Shown piece by piece: positions 21,928 to 33,316 of a stretch of 34,332 bases of DNA (position 1 is the first letter of the stretch; each line of letters opens with the position of its first letter). The translations under genes and the position numbers were made by a program. The stretch is from a virus, in IMG/VR virus record IMGVR_UViG_3300022602_000258, positions 1-34,332 of that record; one strand, written 5' to 3'. The notes below the pieces were generated by a model. The model was not told where the DNA came from. It ran no database searches and saw nothing but the letters and a program-made list of their open reading frames with translations.

Positions 21928-23427
21928 TTAGTAATAAGCGGCAGACCTGCGCCGTCTATATATTGGTTCATCTGGTTCATCACTACCCAAAGATATAAAC
22001 CCTCCCTTTCTGAATCGAATCAATGCCTGCGTAGTCGAGTCTACCAAGTCATCGTGATCAGAATTAGGGAACGCCGCCATCTCTTCAATTAACTCATCAG
22101 CCCATCTTGTTGCAGGAGCCCATACCTTACCGCTCGCAAACAAATCAGACACAGAGTTAATCCTCACCATCTTATCATTTCCCCTGCTCGGCGTAAACTC
22201 TTGTACAGGTATTCCCATAGCCCTCAACTCAAATATCAACGGTGCTCCACTTGCCTTCGCCTCAACAATAAAAGAGTCTGGTTCCCAGTTCCTATATTCT
22301 CGCATAGCAATCTCCTTTAACTCAGGAAATTCCATCCTCCTCTTAAATGCATCAAGCAAAATAATATTGGGATCGCGCGCATTCTCGTTTAAATAAAATA
22401 TCCCCCATGTCGTACACGCAGAATAGTCACTCCTCTCACTCTTCGTAAACGCCGTATCCCAACTCTGAATAATATACTCGCACGGTGGTATATCTTCCCC
22501 TTCCCATATCCTCCACCAATCCCTCTTAACAATCGCCCCCTCCTCACTGGTCGGGCTTTGCATATACTGCGCATTCCACTTACTCGCAGGCAATTCAGAC
22601 TTTAACGCCTCCAGCTCTGGCAAACTCCAAAACTCTGGCCAAAGCGGCTTTCCACTCGGCATAATCGCAGGCAACTGTATAACGTCCCACTTCTCTCCGT
22701 CCCGATCAATCATCGACTGCACAATCTTGCCCGTCAAATCCTTCTTCGCCCACCTCGTCATCACCACAACAATAGACCCACCAGGCTGAAGACGTTGTCT
22801 CGGTCCAGATGTATACCACTCATACACCTTATCAAACACTGTTGGATCACCCTGCGCCAACGCCGCTTCTTGCTCACTATGCGGATCATCAATAATAAGT
22901 AAGTCCGCACCCTTACCCGTCACCGTACCTCCAACACCTATCGCAAAATATTCGCCATTCTTATTCGTACTCCACCGCCCCGCCGCCTTAGAGTCAGACC
23001 GCAAATTAACAAAAGGAAATATCCTATGGTACTGCTCACTCGCAACTAAGTTCCTCACCTTCCTACCAAACCCCACCGCCAACTCAGCCGTGTTAGATGT
23101 CTGGATAATCTTCTTCCCAGGATACTTCCCCAAATACCACGCAGGCAAAAGATAACTCGCAAACTCACTCTTAGTATGCCGAGGCGGCATATTAATAATC
23201 AACCGTTTTATCTCTCCCCTGGCTATCTGTTCAAACTTCTCAGCCATTAACTCATGATGCCGACCGTGTATAAACCCAGGCCACATCTCATTAACAAACA
23301 TCATAAAGTCATCTGCCGCCCGCTCAACCGTCAGACTCTTCTTATAAACCTCAAACATCTGAAACATCTCCTCAGCCATATCATCTGGCATCTTAGAGAT
23401 AGCATCAATAATATCTTGATCCTTCAT
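21928..23427 (-). CDS. terL: Terminase large subunit
   Basis: 499 residues. The ATPase has a Walker A-like IINMPPRHTKSE (about 77-88), a Walker B LLIIDDPHSEQ (176-186) and the coupling segment IVVVMTRWAKKD (219-230). The nuclease half shows the three acidic centres expected of the RNase H-like fold: SWDTAF (D324), FIVEAKASG (E389) and the HDDLVDS cluster (458-464). It pumps DNA into the procapsid and cuts concatemers. Its ATG overlaps the stop of the winged-helix gene (ATGA), so the two are translationally coupled. Order with TerS and portal is standard. Confidence 0.95.
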   Translation of the reverse strand: MKDQDIIDAISKMPDDMAEEMFQMFEVYKKSLTVERAADDFMMFVNEMWPGFIHGRHHELMAEKFEQIARGEIKRLIINMPPRHTKSEFASYLLPAWYLGKYPGKKIIQTSNTAELAVGFGRKVRNLVASEQYHRIFPFVNLRSDSKAAGRWSTNKNGEYFAIGVGGTVTGKGADLLIIDDPHSEQEAALAQGDPTVFDKVYEWYTSGPRQRLQPGGSIVVVMTRWAKKDLTGKIVQSMIDRDGEKWDVIQLPAIMPSGKPLWPEFWSLPELEALKSELPASKWNAQYMQSPTSEEGAIVKRDWWRIWEGEDIPPCEYIIQSWDTAFTKSERSDYSACTTWGIFYLNENARDPNIILLDAFKRRMEFPELKEIAMREYRNWEPDSFIVEAKASGAPLIFELRAMGIPVQEFTPSRGNDKMVRINSVSDLFASGKVWAPATRWADELIEEMAAFPNSDHDDLVDSTTQALIRFRKGGFISLGSDEPDEPIYRRRRSAAYY

Positions 23428-24862: not shown

Positions 24863-25096
24863 ATGACAACGTTAGCAATAAATATGACTGAGCCTGATTT
24901 CATTCGGTTTGTGCGGGCTTATGCTATGCAGAATTACGATAAAGGCGGTTGGGACGAAGTTTGTGAAGCATGGGACGATGGCGACATTCTTGAGTATTAC
25001 ATTGAGGGAAACCCCACAAAGGCATTCAAAGAGTTATCCAAAACGGTCAAGCTCCGTTACGAATACGCACAGGAGATTCGTAGCACCGCATTCTGA
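24863..25096 (+). CDS. First gene of the rightward operon, hypothetical
   Basis: 77 residues from the ATG preceded by CAGGAG; an in-frame ATG 14 codons upstream has no ribosome binding site. Sequence features: TEPDFIRFVRAYAMQNYDKG, WDEVCEAWDDGDILEYYIEG and a helical end. Acidic and soluble, it is of a type seen in early regions of several phages. Its stop codon lies one base pair-free position before the first hammerhead ribozyme stem. The function is unknown. Confidence 0.7.
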   Translation: MTTLAINMTEPDFIRFVRAYAMQNYDKGGWDEVCEAWDDGDILEYYIEGNPTKAFKELSKTVKLRYEYAQEIRSTAF

Positions 25097-25146
25097 GCAT
25101 AACTGATGAGACTTCAATAGTCGAAACCCCGAAAGGGGTCTTATGC
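25097..25146 (+). ncRNA. Hammerhead ribozyme 1 (type I)
   Basis: Complete core in the correct order. Stem I is GCATAA (25097-25102) with TTATGC (25141-25146). CTGATGA is at 25103-25109. Stem II is GACT/AGTC with a TCAAT loop (25110-25122). GAAA is at 25123-25126. Stem III is CCCC/GGGG with a GAAA tetraloop (25127-25138). The cleavage site TC is at 25139-25140, with cutting predicted after 25140. It lies entirely in the spacer between two genes, and the downstream product would carry the next gene's ribosome binding site. Two further copies with compensating changes support the fold. Confidence 0.9.
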
Positions 25147-25163
25147 AACTACAAGGAATACAA

Positions 25164-25307
25164 ATGTTAACAACAACACTACAAGACCCATTACAAGTGA
25201 AAGCCTACTTAAGGGCATTCGGCCTGAGATATACATTTTGGTATCTAAATGAAATGTGCAACTGCACCGTAGGCCGTACGGTCTATTTACTCATCCTATC
25301 AATCTAG
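25164..25307 (+). CDS. Small hypothetical protein after ribozyme 1
   Basis: 47 residues (MLTTTLQDPLQVKAYLRAFG, then YTFWYLNEMCNCTVGRTVYL). The AAGGAA ribosome binding site sits in the leader that ribozyme 1 would release, and the ATG follows at normal spacing. The next gene starts 9 bases after its stop. The sequence has a small hydrophobic end but no clear membrane segment. No family recognised; it is supported by leader and spacing. Confidence 0.5.
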   Translation: MLTTTLQDPLQVKAYLRAFGLRYTFWYLNEMCNCTVGRTVYLLILSI

Positions 25308-25316
25308 GAGATCACC

Positions 25317-25496
25317 ATGCTACATGACAGAGACTATTACTTAGCTTGCGCACAAAACATGGAAAAGAGCGGTGGCGGGTTTGCGTCCGCAATTGCACAA
25401 GCCTTTTACAAAGCTGATGCCAAGAACGCTATAAAAATTGTTGTGGCCTTTTCAGATTTATTTGAAAAGTTTGCACCAAAGGAGAATGAGCAATGA
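25317..25496 (+). CDS. Small hypothetical protein
   Basis: 59 residues, preceded by an AGGAGAT ribosome binding site. It contains MEKSGGGFASAIAQAFYKAD and a C-terminal helix (FSDLFEKFAPKENEQ), a pattern that recurs in small phage proteins. Its stop overlaps the next start (ATGA), so translation is coupled. The function is unknown. Confidence 0.65.
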   Translation: MLHDRDYYLACAQNMEKSGGGFASAIAQAFYKADAKNAIKIVVAFSDLFEKFAPKENEQ

Positions 25497-25642
25497 TGTG
25501 GCTAGTCAAAATCATTCAGGACGGCACAGTCTTGAGCGAAGAGCGGTTCAATACTTCAGAGGGAGCGCAGTATTGGGCAAAGCAATACCTGAGAACTAAC
25601 CGCCTCACAAACTGCGACATAACCATCCAACTATCTAACTGA
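25493..25642 (+). CDS. Small hypothetical protein ending inside ribozyme 2
   Basis: 49 residues (MMWLVKIIQDGTVLSEERFN, then EGAQYWAKQYLRTNRL). The gene begins with an ATGA overlap. Its last sense codons form the 5' strand of ribozyme 2 stem I, and its TGA stop (25640-25642) is part of the CUGA core. Termination at this codon therefore places the ribosome on the ribozyme. No known domain. Confidence 0.65.
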   Translation: MMWLVKIIQDGTVLSEERFNTSEGAQYWAKQYLRTNRLTNCDITIQLSN

Positions 25643-25683
25643 CGAGGCCGTAAGGCCGAAACGGTCGAGAGACCGTCTTAGAT
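25633..25683 (+). ncRNA. Hammerhead ribozyme 2 (type I), overlapping a stop codon
   Basis: Stem I ATCTAA (25633-25638) pairs with TTAGAT (25678-25683). CTGACGA is at 25639-25645. Stem II is GGCC/GGCC with a GTAA tetraloop (25646-25657). GAAA is at 25658-25661. Stem III is CGGTC/GACCG with a GAGA tetraloop (25662-25675). The cleavage dinucleotide TC is at 25676-25677. All paired positions fit, and the outer stem I and stem II/III pairs differ from ribozyme 1 by compensating changes. The stop codon of the upstream gene is at 25640-25642, inside the core. Confidence 0.92.
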
Positions 25684-25702
25684 TAACTACAAGGAAATAA
25701 CA

Positions 25703-26062
25703 ATGGAAACTACAAGAGATTTAGCAAGCGAACTAGGCCAATTTATTGGCACAACACGGTATTACAAGCCGTCTATTTTCTCAAGCATGAGAATCACGGA
25801 TGGGGTGAAATACTTTATTGACCAAGCGGGCGCTTACTGGTTTACTGACATAGTAGCGACAGAAATCGTGCCTTTAATTGACGATTTTATGGTTGTGCAA
25901 CTTGTTGCACTTGACAACAAGGCCACGATCATTGCAGAGGACGGTGACGAAGAACAAATATTTCTTAAGAAAATTAGCTACACAGACTGCTTGGACGGAG
26001 AGTACAAATTTTTTATGCAAAAAGGTGATTTTGTGGTCATGATGTTGCCAAGTGAGTATTGA
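25703..26062 (+). CDS. DUF6876-like protein
   Basis: 119 residues. The order LGQFIGTTRYYKPSIFSSMR, ITDGVKYFIDQAGAYWFTDI and DCLDGEYKFFMQKGDF resembles a small phage and bacterial family that I recall as DUF6876 (recalled, not searched). The dyad site at 25895-25910 is read as VQLVAL in the middle of the protein. The ATG follows the AAGGAAATAAC leader released by ribozyme 2. The function is unknown. Confidence 0.65.
   Translation: METTRDLASELGQFIGTTRYYKPSIFSSMRITDGVKYFIDQAGAYWFTDIVATEIVPLIDDFMVVQLVALDNKATIIAEDGDEEQIFLKKISYTDCLDGEYKFFMQKGDFVVMMLPSEY
25895..25910. repeat. 16-bp dyad site GTGCAACTTGTTGCAC (in DUF6876-like gene)
   Basis: Exact copy within coding sequence, read as VQLVAL in the frame shared by all coding copies. 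Confidence 0.75.
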
Positions 26063-26063
26063 A

Positions 26064-26261
26064 ATGATATTAACAACAACCGACCAGATCGAGCACTTCA
26101 GGATGTTGACGCTTTATCAAGGGCTAAAACTTGAGATTGCGGGCATGAAAGTAAACCGTCATACCTCTATCTTGAAAATTCTCAAGAAAATGGGCTACAA
26201 GGGCACAAGAAAAGAAATCTTGCTGCAACTGGCTAAAGACTTAGGCAAAGAGATTAACTGA
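26064..26261 (+). CDS. Small helical phage protein ending inside ribozyme 3
   Basis: 65 residues from the ATG two bases after the previous stop; a GTG four codons upstream (26052) is an alternative. Features: MILTTTDQIEHFRMLTLYQG, LKLEIAGMKVNRHTSILKIL and a basic helical end. Proteins with this start are common in phages of Proteobacteria. Its TGA stop (26259-26261) forms part of the ribozyme 3 core and the codons before it form stem I. The function is unknown. Confidence 0.65.
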   Translation: MILTTTDQIEHFRMLTLYQGLKLEIAGMKVNRHTSILKILKKMGYKGTRKEILLQLAKDLGKEIN

Positions 26262-26303
26262 CGAGCCCTAATTGGGCGAAACGGTCGAGAGGCCGTCTTA
26301 ATC
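26252..26303 (+). ncRNA. Hammerhead ribozyme 3 (type I), overlapping a stop codon
   Basis: Stem I GATTAA (26252-26257) pairs with TTAATC (26298-26303). CTGACGA is at 26258-26264. Stem II is GCCC/GGGC with a TAATT loop (26265-26277). GAAA is at 26278-26281. Stem III is CGGTC/GGCCG with a GAGA loop and one G-U pair (26282-26295). TC is at 26296-26297. The fold matches ribozymes 1 and 2. The stop of the upstream gene (26259-26261) lies in the core. Confidence 0.9.
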
Positions 26304-26322
26304 AACTACAAAGGAAATACAA

Positions 26323-26613
26323 ATGCAAACTTACAAATTTTTTGAAGATCCAGGCCACGCCTGGTTAGAAGTTCCACTAAGAGAATTGATCGACTTAGGA
26401 ATTGCAAGTGCCATCAGCCATTATTCGTATATTAAAACTCGACTGGATACCCCGTTTGTTTACTTGGAAGAGGACTGCGATTATTCCACTTTTGCGGACG
26501 CAATGGCTATGGCGGGCAAGCAATTTAAATACGAATCAATTTATCAAGAGAACACACCGATTCGAAACTACGCAAACTACCGCCCGCTTGATTGGGCATC
26601 TTACAAAGGATAA
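26323..26613 (+). CDS. Hypothetical protein after ribozyme 3
   Basis: 96 residues. The start MQTYKFFEDPGHAWLEVPLR, then SAISHYSYIKTRLDTPFVYL, EEDCDYSTFADAMAMAG and IRNYANYRPLDW, form a soluble alpha/beta protein of a type found in several phage early regions. The AAAGGAAATAC leader is nearly identical to that of the genes after ribozymes 1 and 2. No enzymatic motif is recognised. Confidence 0.7.
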   Translation: MQTYKFFEDPGHAWLEVPLRELIDLGIASAISHYSYIKTRLDTPFVYLEEDCDYSTFADAMAMAGKQFKYESIYQENTPIRNYANYRPLDWASYKG

Positions 26614-26616
26614 CCT

Positions 26617-26775
26617 ATGGCCGAGATTGATTTAACGTCAATCTGGAATGCCTTAGAGGGGTACAGGGAAACCTGTATTCCAGAGGGCAACGCAGAATAT
26701 GATGAGGAATGGAATGAAATATGTACCCAAATGGCATGGATAGCTGAAAAACTAAACCAAGAGGAGGACGTATGA
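26617..26775 (+). CDS. Small acidic helical protein
   Basis: 52 residues (MAEIDLTSIWNALEGYRETC, then EEWNEICTQMAWIAEKLNQE), strongly acidic, with an AAAGGATAACCT start region 3 bases after the preceding stop. It joins the next gene by an ATGA overlap. The function is unknown; acidic small proteins in this position could be host-takeover factors, but that is speculation. Confidence 0.6.
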   Translation: MAEIDLTSIWNALEGYRETCIPEGNAEYDEEWNEICTQMAWIAEKLNQEEDV

Positions 26776-26882
26776 CCAAAGAAAAGATGCAATGGTTTGC
26801 GGTGAACTTTATATATACGGTTGTCTATATATTTTGTATTGCCGTGTTGTTTATGGATGCCTTAGTATGGAGACCCAATTAA
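26772..26882 (+). CDS. Very small single-span membrane protein
   Basis: 36 residues with one hydrophobic segment at about 8-29 (WFAVNFIYTVVYIFCIAVLF). It starts within the previous stop (ATGA) and is followed directly by the next ATG at 26883. Position, overlap and membrane profile support translation despite its size. Possibly a small inhibitory or membrane-modifying peptide; no family recognised. Confidence 0.55.
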   Translation: MTKEKMQWFAVNFIYTVVYIFCIAVLFMDALVWRPN

Positions 26883-27074
26883 ATGATTACAGAAAACGAA
26901 CTCAAAGAGCATGGATACGAAGTATTGCCAAGGGCAGGATGGTTGCGAATTGATTGCACCATGATGCCAAAAGACTGGTACGACATTTGTAAGGACTTTG
27001 GTGTTGACCCAAGTTGTGACGAGATCATTCTTGCAATTGCAGGAGTAAAAGAAGTTTATAAGGAGAATGAATAA
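26883..27074 (+). CDS. Small hypothetical protein
   Basis: 63 residues, acidic (MITENELKEHGYEVLPRAGW, then TMMPKDWYDICKDFGVDPSC). It begins immediately after the stop of the membrane peptide and ends with a TAATG overlap to the next gene. The pattern suggests a compact alpha/beta fold. No assignment. Confidence 0.65.
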   Translation: MITENELKEHGYEVLPRAGWLRIDCTMMPKDWYDICKDFGVDPSCDEIILAIAGVKEVYKENE

Positions 27075-27271
27075 TGGCTAAATTTATAGTAACTTTGGTT
27101 CGAGTTGAGCACGCTATCTATCGCATAAATGTGGAGGCCGAAGATCAGGAGCAGGCCGAAGAATTGGCGCAGGAAAAGTGGAACGAAGGAGATATTGACC
27201 TAGATACAGGCGAAGTTGTGTATGGTGAAGACTTTATTAATCATGTTGAAGAAACAAAGGGAAACACATGA
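27074..27271 (+). CDS. DpnD/PcfM-like small protein (tentative)
   Basis: 65 residues. MAKFIVTLVRVEHAIYRINV followed by EAEDQEQAEELAQEKWNEGD resembles a widespread small fold with two strands and one helix found in DpnD/PcfM-type proteins (my recollection). It overlaps both neighbours (TAATG before, ATGA after). The role is unknown; the fold is a guess from the strand/helix order. Confidence 0.55.
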   Translation: MAKFIVTLVRVEHAIYRINVEAEDQEQAEELAQEKWNEGDIDLDTGEVVYGEDFINHVEETKGNT

Positions 27272-27519
27272 ACGCAAAAGAACAAACAGTTTATTGGGAA
27301 AATATCGCAATTAAACAATTGGTAGGTCGAAAAATAGTCAACGTGCGATACATGAATGATGCTGAAGCAAAGGAATACGGTTGGTACAACAAGCCAGTAA
27401 TCATTATCTTGGACGATGGCAACATCATTTTTCCATCAGCCGATGATGAAGGAAACGATGGTGGTGCTATCTTTACTAACGATGACAAGCAACCAGTTTT
27501 GCCAGTTTTACGGTTTTAA
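27268..27519 (+). CDS. Small hypothetical protein
   Basis: 83 residues: GRKIVNVRYMNDAEAKEYGW, PVIIILDDGNIIFPSADDEG and a closing strand. It is likely a beta-rich fold, and similar sequences occur in several phages. The ATG overlaps the previous stop. It is followed by 17 noncoding bases before the next gene. The function is unknown. Confidence 0.65.
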   Translation: MNAKEQTVYWENIAIKQLVGRKIVNVRYMNDAEAKEYGWYNKPVIIILDDGNIIFPSADDEGNDGGAIFTNDDKQPVLPVLRF

Positions 27520-27536
27520 TACGAAATGGAGACAGT

Positions 27537-27692
27537 ATGACAGTAGCAGATTTAATCCGTAAACTTTTACAAGTGGACGATATAACCAAACCAGTTTACA
27601 TTTACAAATACGAAGATAGCAGACTCGCTGAAATAGACGTAGTTGACGAACTATCCGACAGGGTTGACATCAACGCAAGGGAAACGGCATGA
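27537..27692 (+). CDS. Small hypothetical protein
   Basis: 51 residues (MTVADLIRKLLQVDDITKPV, then SRLAEIDVVDELSDRVDINA). GGAGACAGT lies just before the ATG, and an ATGA overlap leads to the next gene. The sequence looks like a helix plus strand module of a kind common in phage early regions. No assignment. Confidence 0.6.
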   Translation: MTVADLIRKLLQVDDITKPVYIYKYEDSRLAEIDVVDELSDRVDINARETA

Positions 27693-28564: not shown

Positions 28565-30036
28565 TTGTTTCTACTCTTTGCCCATGCAATGTTTCTTGAA
28601 CGAATCCAACTAACCGTTTTCTGCGTAACTGGACTTGGATTAGCACTCAGCCCCCTTGGAAATACACCAAACTTCTCTTTGTATTTGTGTGCCGCCCAAC
28701 CATCTTTGAAGTTTCGCATCCTTGCATAGTATAAAAGTTCGGAGTAAAACTGTTGATTGTTTTGGGTTTTATCAGCGCCATCGGTAAACAATTCTTGTAG
28801 CTCACCTGGCACTATGGCTATGCCACGCAACGGTTTTTCATACCCGCAGGAGTAGCAAATGTTGCTTCCCATAATCCACAAAGCTCCACATTGAGGACAC
28901 TTTGCTTCTTTCTTTTCGTCCTCAGTCGGCTCTTTTTTGGCTTTATCTTCTATGCCACTTTCAAGCTCGGTCACTCCTTCTTCGTAAAGTTGATCCCAAT
29001 CTTTCCTAAAACGCAGATAATTTCCACCGTGATCCAACCAAACACCAAACTCTTTGCCTGGAGATGGACGCATAACGCGCCCCATTTGTTGGACGTGCGA
29101 ACTAAACGACTTCGAAAACGGTCTTGCACTTACTCCCATCAACACGTCTGGCACATCAAACCCACGAGTTAATATATCGGTAGCAATCAACCCATGTATA
29201 TTTGTGTCAGGCTTACTGAAATCATCTATGACTTCACGCTTATATTCGCCATCTTCCATATAGGAAATGGACTTAAAGTTGTACCCTTGCTCGTTAAACT
29301 GCCTTTCCAAGTCACGCCCATGCGCCACACCTGAGCAAAATACTACCGTCTTTACTGGTCTACCGAATATTTCATTGGTTTTATTCTTCCATTCGGTAAC
29401 AATATCGCCAGTAATCTTCATGCCACGCGCAGTAACTTCATCTTGCGACCATTCACCCGCAACTTTTTTTGCCCCAGTCATGTCAATTTCTTTGGCAATA
29501 TAGATTTTTAACGGTGTCAGCCAACCTTCTTTGATGAGTTCTTTCGTAGGCTTTGCACCAACCACCACATCATAAATATCGCCCAATCCCTTGGTAAATG
29601 GTGTAGCAGTCAGCCCAATTACCTTTATTGCTGGGTTGTCTTTGATAAAAACAACCAAACTCATACGCATGATGTGGCATTCGTCAATGATTAAATAATC
29701 AATGTGAGGAAAATCAGAACGCTTTTCTAACGTTTGAACAGAGCAAATCTGAATATTTTCTGTCGGGTTGTACCGCCAGTGGTCTGCTTGCATCACTCCA
29801 TGCGGAATAGAGTAGCGAGATAGTCTTGTGCTGGACTGATTGACCAAAACAATCCTATCCATCATCATTGCAACGCGCTTGTTTTGCTTTGCATATTGTT
29901 GCATCAAGGAGATGGCAACCTCTGTTTTGCCAAATCCTGTAGGAGCATATAGCAATTGACTGCCTATGCCCAGATCAAAATTGAGATTGATCTTGTCAAC
30001 CACCTCAATTTGGTGGGGTCTGAGCGATAGATTCAT
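28561..30036 (-). CDS. Superfamily 2 DEAD/DEAH-type helicase with zinc ribbon
   Basis: 491 residues. Motifs: Walker A LLYAPTGFGKTEVA (31-38 core), DECH box in YLIIDECHIMR (118-121), TATPF (143-147), a C-terminal RecA lobe with GLIATDILTRGFDVPD, and QQMGRVMRP (317-324) as motif VI. A zinc ribbon follows (Cys at 380, 383, 394 and 397; CPQCG...CYSCGYEKP). The arrangement suits a phage replicative or recombination helicase. It lies between the ParB-like and primase-like genes, with both junctions overlapping. Confidence 0.85.
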   Translation of the reverse strand: MNLSLRPHQIEVVDKINLNFDLGIGSQLLYAPTGFGKTEVAISLMQQYAKQNKRVAMMMDRIVLVNQSSTRLSRYSIPHGVMQADHWRYNPTENIQICSVQTLEKRSDFPHIDYLIIDECHIMRMSLVVFIKDNPAIKVIGLTATPFTKGLGDIYDVVVGAKPTKELIKEGWLTPLKIYIAKEIDMTGAKKVAGEWSQDEVTARGMKITGDIVTEWKNKTNEIFGRPVKTVVFCSGVAHGRDLERQFNEQGYNFKSISYMEDGEYKREVIDDFSKPDTNIHGLIATDILTRGFDVPDVLMGVSARPFSKSFSSHVQQMGRVMRPSPGKEFGVWLDHGGNYLRFRKDWDQLYEEGVTELESGIEDKAKKEPTEDEKKEAKCPQCGALWIMGSNICYSCGYEKPLRGIAIVPGELQELFTDGADKTQNNQQFYSELLYYARMRNFKDGWAAHKYKEKFGVFPRGLSANPSPVTQKTVSWIRSRNIAWAKSRNK

Positions 30037-30833
30037 TTTTTGGATTTTTCTGCTTTTTCAGCCCTGCGTTTCCAATATTGCACTTGCTGAATAGCATCGG
30101 CCGATTTTTTCTGATAGTCGTTGCGGGATAAAGTCATAGCCTGCAACTCACCCTCACATTTTGCCAAATCCAGCCTCAAGCTCTTAATTGTTTCTTGTAC
30201 GTCAGCTATTTCTTCTTCTGGTAAATCCAAACTACCTACTGCAATGGCATCACGCAACCTAACATTCTCTTGCATCAACGCAGAATTCTCAACAACCAAC
30301 TCTTCCAACTTTTCGTTAAATGTTTCATCTTCCAACGGTTCTTCGTAAACTGGGTCGGGTGCAACTTGTTGCACTTTCTTTGACTTTTTGCCCATTTCTT
30401 TTGCAAGAGCAAGTTCTTTGCGAACACGACCAACCGTCATGTCTGAGCACTTACACATCCTGGCAATCTCACGATTACTTTTGTCGCTAAATTCAACATC
30501 TTCTAATATTTCAATAACGATTTTGCGTAAGTCTTCGTTACTTCTGCGTAGTCCATGATTCGAATTTGCACTCCAAGAGTAAATCTTGGCATCACGCTTT
30601 GTACCCTTGGAAATGTCACAATCAACTTCTGTTAGCTTGGCTCTGCGGTGAGCATGGTAACGGTGAAAACCATCACCCAACCAATTATCCAAGCCGTCAA
30701 AGAATATTTTGACTGGCGGCATTACCACTTTGTTTAAAAGGTTCTCTGTGTACTCCTGAATAATGTTATCGTGAATTTTTACCCGTGATTGTGTATCTCC
30801 ATCAATCCTGATTTTCTCAATATTAATTTTCAT
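30033..30833 (-). CDS. ParB-like DNA-binding protein with coiled-coil tail
   Basis: 266 residues. The ParB/Srx-type N-terminal domain shows IRIDGDTQSRVKIHDNIIQE, PPVKIFFDGLDNWLGDGFHR and YHAHRRAKLTEVDCDISKGT. A helix-turn-helix follows at about 115-140 (SDKSNREIARMCKCSDMTVG). The dyad site at 30359-30374 is translated in the linker as KKVQQVAP. The last about 100 residues form a coiled coil (LVVENSALMQENVRLRDAIA). ParB proteins bind palindromic parS sites of about 16 bp. No ParA is seen, so this is a ParB-type regulator rather than a proven partition protein. Confidence 0.75.
   Translation of the reverse strand: MKINIEKIRIDGDTQSRVKIHDNIIQEYTENLLNKVVMPPVKIFFDGLDNWLGDGFHRYHAHRRAKLTEVDCDISKGTKRDAKIYSWSANSNHGLRRSNEDLRKIVIEILEDVEFSDKSNREIARMCKCSDMTVGRVRKELALAKEMGKKSKKVQQVAPDPVYEEPLEDETFNEKLEELVVENSALMQENVRLRDAIAVGSLDLPEEEIADVQETIKSLRLDLAKCEGELQAMTLSRNDYQKKSADAIQQVQYWKRRAEKAEKSKK
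30359..30374. repeat. 16-bp dyad site (in ParB-like gene)
   Basis: Exact copy in complement orientation on the plus strand, coding for VQQVAP in the linker after the helix-turn-helix. Confidence 0.75.
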
Positions 30834-32928: not shown

Positions 32929-33089
32929 ATTAACTCCATATAAATACCCAGCAATATTTTCAGCAACCATCTTTGAAAAGCATTAGGCGGTTTTGGTATA
33001 TGACTGTGAAAAGTTATGTTGCTATCTTTGCCAAGTCTAAACTTTATATTTGGCTTAGGCGGTGAATAAAAAGTATATTCTTCAGTCAT
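32925..33089 (-). CDS. Small basic protein in the junction block
   Basis: 54 residues: MTEEYTFYSPPKPNIKFRLG, then ITFHSHIPKPPNAFQRWLLK and ILLGIYMELI. It fills an otherwise empty gap exactly: the start overlaps the preceding stop, and its TGA overlaps the next ATG. An amphipathic hydrophobic end suggests membrane contact. No family can be named with certainty. Confidence 0.6.
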   Translation of the reverse strand: MTEEYTFYSPPKPNIKFRLGKDSNITFHSHIPKPPNAFQRWLLKILLGIYMELI

Positions 33090-33316
33090 TCTTGTCCTCT
33101 GTTAGCAATAATTATTTCCATAGTTCTATCTTGTGCTTCATACAAAGGCTTTGCACATTCTTTGCATAGTTGGGCGTTTATCCCTCGCCAATGAAATGAA
33201 AACATTCTGTGTGTTTTTGGAAACTCCATTCCTGGATAATCACTGCACTCATACACTTCTGTATCAAGCGTTTTCTTGCATCCATCACAAATATGCTCAT
33301 AGGTTAGCTTAATCAT
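33086..33316 (-). CDS. Small zinc-binding protein
   Basis: 76 residues with CDGC near residue 10 and CKEC near residue 52 (HICDGCKKTLDTE, QLCKECAKPLYEAQ), a likely four-Cys zinc site. The sequence ends ANRGQE, and the same RGQE end closes the HNH gene upstream. ATGA overlaps occur at both ends. It may be a small nucleic-acid-binding protein; the role is unknown. Confidence 0.65.
   Translation of the reverse strand: MIKLTYEHICDGCKKTLDTEVYECSDYPGMEFPKTHRMFSFHWRGINAQLCKECAKPLYEAQDRTMEIIIANRGQE

Follow-up and report, generated by a model that had tools for sequence, protein, structure and literature searches.

Type I hammerhead ribozymes at three gene junctions of a phage operon and their predicted role in splitting its mRNA

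A rightward phage operon with ribozyme motifs between its genes

What do three ribozyme motifs do between the small genes of a single phage operon? The window analyzed here, the whole 34,332-nucleotide stretch of IMG/VR record IMGVR_UViG_3300022602_000258, comes from an uncultured, apparently freshwater tailed phage. Among named phages, Pelagibacter phage HTVC027P has the most similar terminase (55% identity), and comparing the operon DNA and one of the ribozymes with named phages gave no useful match. Flanked by leftward packaging genes on one side and leftward primase and helicase genes on the other, a plus-strand operon of 13 small genes with about twelve junctions begins with gene A at 24863 and ends with gene M at 27692:

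21928-23427, leftward: terminase large subunit, a packaging gene beside the operon
24863-25096, plus strand: gene A, opening the rightward operon; 77 aa, no PHROG
25164-25307, plus strand: gene B, 47 aa; opens predicted block 2; homologue in the related contig L211
25317-25496, plus strand: gene C, 59 aa; overlaps gene D at ATGA
25493-25642, plus strand: gene D, 49 aa; TGA stop at 25640-25642, inside hammerhead 2
25703-26062, plus strand: gene E, 119 aa; predicted block 3
26064-26261, plus strand: gene F, 65 aa; weak match to phrog_19182; TGA stop at 26259-26261, inside hammerhead 3
26323-27692, plus strand: genes G to M, seven small genes, predicted block 4; without a further hammerhead

The ribozymes occupy three of the roughly twelve junctions, namely A/B, D/E and F/G, and junctions B/C and C/D hold no ribozyme. 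The claim of a preliminary description that three hammerheads separate genes of one phage operon is strongly supported; its placement of them in successive spacers has to be abandoned, as genes B, C and D intervene between the first and the second. No sigma-70-like promoter was found on the plus strand inside the operon before 27.5 kb, which is consistent with a single operon transcript. Intrinsic terminators (a G+C-rich hairpin followed by a U run) were also considered and rejected, as none of four terminator-like sites coincides with a ribozyme. The reading that we develop below, and to which we assign a probability of about 85%, is that self-cleavage at the three junctions would split one operon mRNA into blocks; what is shown in its favor is the structure with its covariation, the retention of all three ribozymes by a sister phage, their strict position between a stop and a start codon, and their prevalence in phages.

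Pattern, fold and covariance identify three type I hammerheads

The three elements were laid out as follows:

25097-25146, plus strand: hammerhead 1, type I, predicted cleavage after C 25140
25097-25102/25141-25146, plus strand: hammerhead 1, stem I, GCATAA/TTATGC
25103-25109 and 25123-25125, plus strand: hammerhead 1, core, CTGATGA and GAA
25110-25122 and 25126-25139, plus strand: hammerhead 1, stem II (loop TCAAT) and stem III including A15.1-U16.1
25633-25683, plus strand: hammerhead 2, type I, GUAA-loop variant, predicted cleavage after C 25677
25633-25638/25678-25683, plus strand: hammerhead 2, stem I
25639-25645 and 25658-25660, plus strand: hammerhead 2, core, CTGACGA and GAA
25646-25657 and 25661-25676, plus strand: hammerhead 2, stem II (loop GTAA) and stem III
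26252-26303, plus strand: hammerhead 3, type I, predicted cleavage after C 26297
26252-26257/26298-26303, plus strand: hammerhead 3, stem I
26258-26264 and 26278-26280, plus strand: hammerhead 3, core, CTGACGA and GAA
26265-26277 and 26281-26296, plus strand: hammerhead 3, stem II (loop TAATT) and stem III

Searching the window with the pattern CTGANGA-N(6-30)-GAAAC-N(6-30)-GTC returned exactly three matches (25103-25140, 25639-25677 and 26258-26297) and none elsewhere, with 0.09 matches expected and none of 100 shuffles yielding three. All three carry the type I core, consisting of CUGAYGA, GAA, the A15.1-U16.1 pair and C17, with three stems around it and an open stem I. RNAfold predicted the hammerhead three-way junction as the minimum free energy structure of each 58-60-nt segment (z about -2.75). 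In segments of 125-127 nt, hammerheads 1 and 2 kept this fold; in hammerhead 3, an upstream stretch competes for stem I and an alternative pairing was preferred. Pattern, fold and the covariance model described below agree on three full hammerheads with the positions and stems given in the preliminary description, including its three stem I sequences that differ outside UAA/UUA. A correction concerns stem III of hammerhead 3 (CGGTC/GGCCG), which includes a G-U pair, as the sequences in that description already indicate. By sequence and predicted fold, the three are genuine type I hammerheads.

Further hammerheads were gathered by two patterns from other viral contigs, plus prokaryotic genome contigs. 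A structural scan of 1.93 Mb identified 224 unique complete hammerheads in 145 loci and gave no match in the reversed sequences; as parts of the core are prescribed by both patterns, the figure is no estimate of prevalence. Covariance model R1, built from 46 of the hammerheads collected from other contigs and none from the window, scored hammerhead 3 at 74.3 bits (E 1.1e-16), hammerhead 1 at 64.8 bits (E 2.9e-14) and hammerhead 2 at 51.6 bits (E 7.1e-11), so that all three reached significance with an independent model (E 1e-16 to 7e-11). Among the 46 homologues, 99.9% of stem cells were paired and 13 of 16 pairs had changed on both sides, the three invariant pairs being given no weight as they are largely fixed by the search patterns. 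The covariation score was 0.829, compared with 0.180 after shuffling and 0.058-0.108 in slid registers. The next match in the window, a hammerhead-like stretch at 33060-33095 (14.7 bits, E 0.17), lacks stems II and III and was dismissed as chance.

A scan with Rfam Hammerhead_1 and Hammerhead_3, which the preliminary description had proposed as a check, turned out differently: none of the three reached the gathering threshold, and the sole Rfam trace in the window was a mis-registered Hammerhead_3 match to hammerhead 2, at 25.6 bits versus a cut-off of 48.5. Rfam 15 likewise returned no gathering-threshold matches in 15 loci with about 40 such clear ribozymes, and we therefore attribute the negative outcome to models that miss this subclass, that is, to coverage and not to absence. 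The window ribozymes share with Hammerhead_1 (RF00163) and Hammerhead_3 (RF00008) the catalytic core CUGANGA ... GAAA ... UH and the three stems, but differ in having a short hairpin III and an open 6-bp stem I with no outer stem I. Standard Rfam annotation overlooks these ribozymes in phage genomes, which represents a practical annotation gap.

A uniform subclass with linked loop II and stem I flanks

The window ribozymes belong to a uniform type I subclass whose typical form has a 6-bp open stem I between A/A flanks and a UNANU loop on a 4-bp stem II; within it, hammerhead 2 represents a minority loop and flank type. Stem I measured 6 bp in 194 of the 224 collected hammerheads. Among 133 ribozymes collected without a stem I constraint, the base 5' of stem I was A in nearly all; stem I opened with A-G in 125 and its 3' side read C-A in 126. 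In a set free of loop and flank constraints, 58 of 81 ribozymes had a 5-nt loop II over 4 bp, and these loops followed the consensus UNANU (U first in 58, A third in 53, U fifth in 46). The minority type that includes hammerhead 2 combines a GUAA or similar loop with a U/A-U/U flank (slashes mark the ends of stem I) and comes mostly from one phage group. Loop class was linked to flank class with an odds ratio of 36 (p 5e-9), a statistic that ignores phylogeny; similarly, the A/G-C/A flank accompanied 151 of 161 UNANU loops versus 0 of 7 GNRA loops, with relatedness uncorrected.

Neither an outer stem I (pairing 0.667 versus 0.653 in shuffles) nor a Watson-Crick pseudoknot of loop II showed a clear excess over shuffled controls, and the link between loop and flank may reflect a non-Watson-Crick contact of loop II with the unpaired flanks. 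The predicted activity of hammerheads 1 and 3 would rely on such a contact. Extended type I hammerheads of the Schistosoma type have the same permutation, and in both loop II would be expected to touch the far part of stem I. Unlike them, the window subclass has no outer stem I beyond an internal loop, and its flank is a single-stranded A / AA. Hammerheads of one collected locus (L140) carry another loop II (TAA-rich) and flank (TA/G..), possibly a further docking variant.

Conservation and turnover in related phages

The preliminary description had suggested searching related phage contigs for the same architecture, and it was present in a sister phage (L225) and in others. The sister phage, with a 98% identical terminase and an operon region 85% identical in nucleotide sequence, carries all three hammerheads at the same positions. 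Hammerhead 1 differs only at the variable N7. In hammerhead 2, stem II changes from GGCC/GGCC in the window to GTTC/GAAC and stem III from CGGTC/GACCG to CCGTA/TACGG; in hammerhead 3, stem III changes from CGGTC/GGCCG to CCGTA/TACGG. These changes are compensatory and leave the remaining core, stem I and pairing unaltered.

That the motifs might be chance or decayed sequences without activity is extremely improbable: the E-values, the covariation, the absence of structural matches in reversed sequence versus 224 in the real one, and the conservation in the sister phage all argue against it.

The wider sample comprised 40 terminase relatives for which 4 kb or more of upstream DNA was available. 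At a terminase identity of at least 82%, all seven carried 2-4 hammerheads, in every case located in the divergent early region and with the first one 1.6-1.9 kb from the terminase; among the more distant relatives, 10 of 33 carried 1-3. Model matches were absent from 23 of the 40, which means that the wider group can do without the ribozymes, and a scan of nine hammerhead-less relatives with Rfam families for a replacement ribozyme found nothing. The gene A family was followed by a hammerhead in 6 of 6 hammerhead-bearing relatives, and the gene E family was directly preceded by one in 6 of 7 relatives.

Some of this turnover fits an unlikely alternative in which the ribozymes serve as repeated DNA for homologous exchange of gene cassettes, with RNA cleavage being secondary. 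The genes between ribozymes are shuffled among relatives, and the colinear contig L211 (CAIKVH010000128.1), which retains genes A, B, C, D, F, G and J, has neither gene E nor hammerhead 2. Moreover, in a set of 40 contigs stems I and III were more alike within than between phages, with an exact stem III core shared at 0.20 within phages versus 0.023 after permutation, and hammerheads 2 and 3 show a concerted change of stem III when the window is compared with the sister phage. Yet gene adjacency was conserved in 18 of 45 cases at ribozyme junctions versus 73 of 218 elsewhere, indicating no enrichment of breakpoints in this small sample, and the strong stem covariation with changing DNA shows that selection acts on the fold of the RNA and not on the identity of the DNA. 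L211 is binned with a Burkholderiales genome, a weak hint at the host.

Shared stems could also mean that, through common stem I strands, the upstream product of one ribozyme is ligated to the downstream product of another, yielding spliced or circular RNAs. Stem I is often identical within a phage, and an exact outer stem I was found at 0.32 within phages versus 0.059 after permutation; as a sign of trans-ligation this was rejected, however, because stem III is shared as well and duplication or conversion explains both. In the window, stem I has a different sequence in each of the three ribozymes except for UAA/UUA, which disfavors cross-pairing, and Perreault et al. (PMC3088659) sought spliced or circular products and found none, making religation very improbable. 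As a separate observation, stem III of hammerhead 2 (25661-25676) and of hammerhead 3 (26281-26296) is near-identical within each phage and differs between the window and the sister phage; the identical change in both suggests conversion between copies.

Ribozymes fit onto stop codons and precede short leaders

The TGA stop of gene A (25094-25096) directly adjoins stem I of hammerhead 1, and genes D and F stop at the core UGA of hammerheads 2 and 3. Downstream of each predicted cut lies a short leader:

25141-25163, plus strand: predicted leader after cleavage 1, 23 nt, AAGGA before ATG 25164 (gene B)
25678-25702, plus strand: predicted leader after cleavage 2, 25 nt, AAGGA before ATG 25703 (gene E)
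26298-26322, plus strand: predicted leader after cleavage 3, 25 nt, AAAGGA before ATG 26323 (gene G)

The same geometry recurred among 227 hammerheads: an ORF stop fell at -24..+17 in 90.7%, and an ATG ORF began 11-60 nt past the cut in 86.3%. Both features together were found in 80.6%, whereas the mirrored strand yielded 0.9% and randomly chosen positions 3.5%; with a simple ORF caller single cases may be wrong, while the contrast with the controls is large.

These positions raise the possibility, which we regard as tentative, that processing is gated by translation, with cutting only where no ribosome is present, so that the ribozyme would report translation status and not act constitutively. 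As the upstream stop lies in or against the ribozyme, a terminating ribosome would cover stem I and the core, and only ribosome-free RNA would be cut. Consistent with gating, the ribozyme itself contained 111 of 206 adjoining stops, of which 50 coincided with the core UGA, as do two of three in the window, and 33 with the UAA of stem I. The upstream reading frames were also used unequally (101/71/34, p 8e-8), the frame running on to loop II being the rarest. However, the motif itself supplies UAA and UGA in two frames, so that the overlap may be mere compactness, and 57 of the 206 stops (-6/-5) have their last base on the first base of stem I or immediately upstream of it. Speculatively, this could extend to a large, Rfam-invisible subclass that forms arrays with as many as nine ribozymes on a contig; there, the core would also be the stop context of the preceding gene, and cleavage would be gated by termination. 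If true, such a ribozyme would be a protein-free, translation-coupled operon splitter.

Predicted processing of the operon mRNA

According to the favored reading of constitutive self-cleavage at gene junctions, each transcribed hammerhead would fold, with its open 6-bp stem I, 4-bp stem II and short hairpin III, and cut 3' of C17. The folded ribozyme would cap the 3' end of the upstream piece, which would carry a 2',3'-cyclic phosphate, and the downstream piece would start with a 5'-OH and a 23-25-nt leader bearing its own Shine-Dalgarno sequence. Ends of this kind would be expected to protect against 3' exonucleases and against 5'-monophosphate-dependent entry by RNase E. The polycistronic RNA would thereby be divided into the blocks A, B-C-D, E-F and G-M, whose stability and translation could differ. 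We infer cutting by these three ribozymes, the usual hammerhead end chemistry and a benefit in block-wise mRNA processing. Several points count against this reading: stem I has only 6 bp, hammerheads 1 and 3 would need the proposed loop II contact, stem I of hammerhead 3 has a competing upstream partner, 23 of the 40 terminase relatives gave no model match, and only three of about twelve junctions hold a ribozyme.

Published precedent and prevalence of arrays

Hammerheads in phages are known from published surveys, as the preliminary description had said. Perreault et al. 2011 (PMC3088659, Fig. 3) described clustered prophage hammerheads on either side of individual genes or short blocks of genes, among them a triple around ardA in Agrobacterium tumefaciens; cleavage in vitro was shown for three arrangements, including a triple that is also active in E. 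coli, and processing into shorter mRNAs was proposed (PMC3088659). De la Pena et al. 2017 (PMC6155905) likewise reported neighboring hammerheads around ORFs that encode small proteins of unknown function, and described what hammerheads do in bacteria and phages as an open question (PMC6155905). Given these descriptions, the arrangement is already known, and three separators in one operon are not the unusual part that they had been taken for.

Arrays were also common in our scans. Two or more hammerheads, with a maximum of nine, were found in 34 of 50 viral records chosen for having at least one, a choice that leaned to multi-copy loci, and in each of the 50 all listed matches lay on one strand. 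Among loci from the second pattern, 17 of 79 had two or more within the retrieved stretch. Two arrays are far denser than that of the window: one contig (G009, the contig of L027) carries nine hammerheads at 4.4-8.7 kb, and the 5.8 kb of locus L208, whose contig was assigned to an Aliivibrio bin, contain nine matches, including a weak one.

Like the Perreault clusters, the window has at least two same-strand hammerheads flanking genes or short blocks in phage DNA. Compared with the clusters that they describe, it differs in its uniform type I subclass, in stops that overlap or abut the ribozyme and in the phage group. HDV-like theta ribozymes of gut phages (PMC10879173) are likewise described as self-cleaving RNAs encoded by phages; they have another fold and are linked to tRNA-based recoding, not to mRNA gene junctions. 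No paper on stop-codon overlap or on this subclass was found in the literature searched, a scope that excluded most subscription journals and supplements. What appears to be new is the precise fit of each ribozyme onto the preceding stop codon, an anatomy sharper than any we found published. Being compact, abundant, fixed in geometry, precisely positioned between stop and start and supplied with natural compensatory mutants in sister phages, the subclass offers a clean test bed.

A dyad repeat dispersed through the phage

Separately, the 14-bp dyad TGCAAC(AA/TT)GTTGCA occurs in eight exact copies in the window, at 2473, 9789, 15383, 23761, 24596, 25896, 27753 and 30360, with 0.14 copies expected when up to one mismatch is allowed. 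Among the other retrieved loci, it was present only in L225 and L211. The window also encodes a protein that could act on such a site:

30033-30833: ParB-like protein

Its presence makes a role of the dyad as a parS-like or operator site possible.
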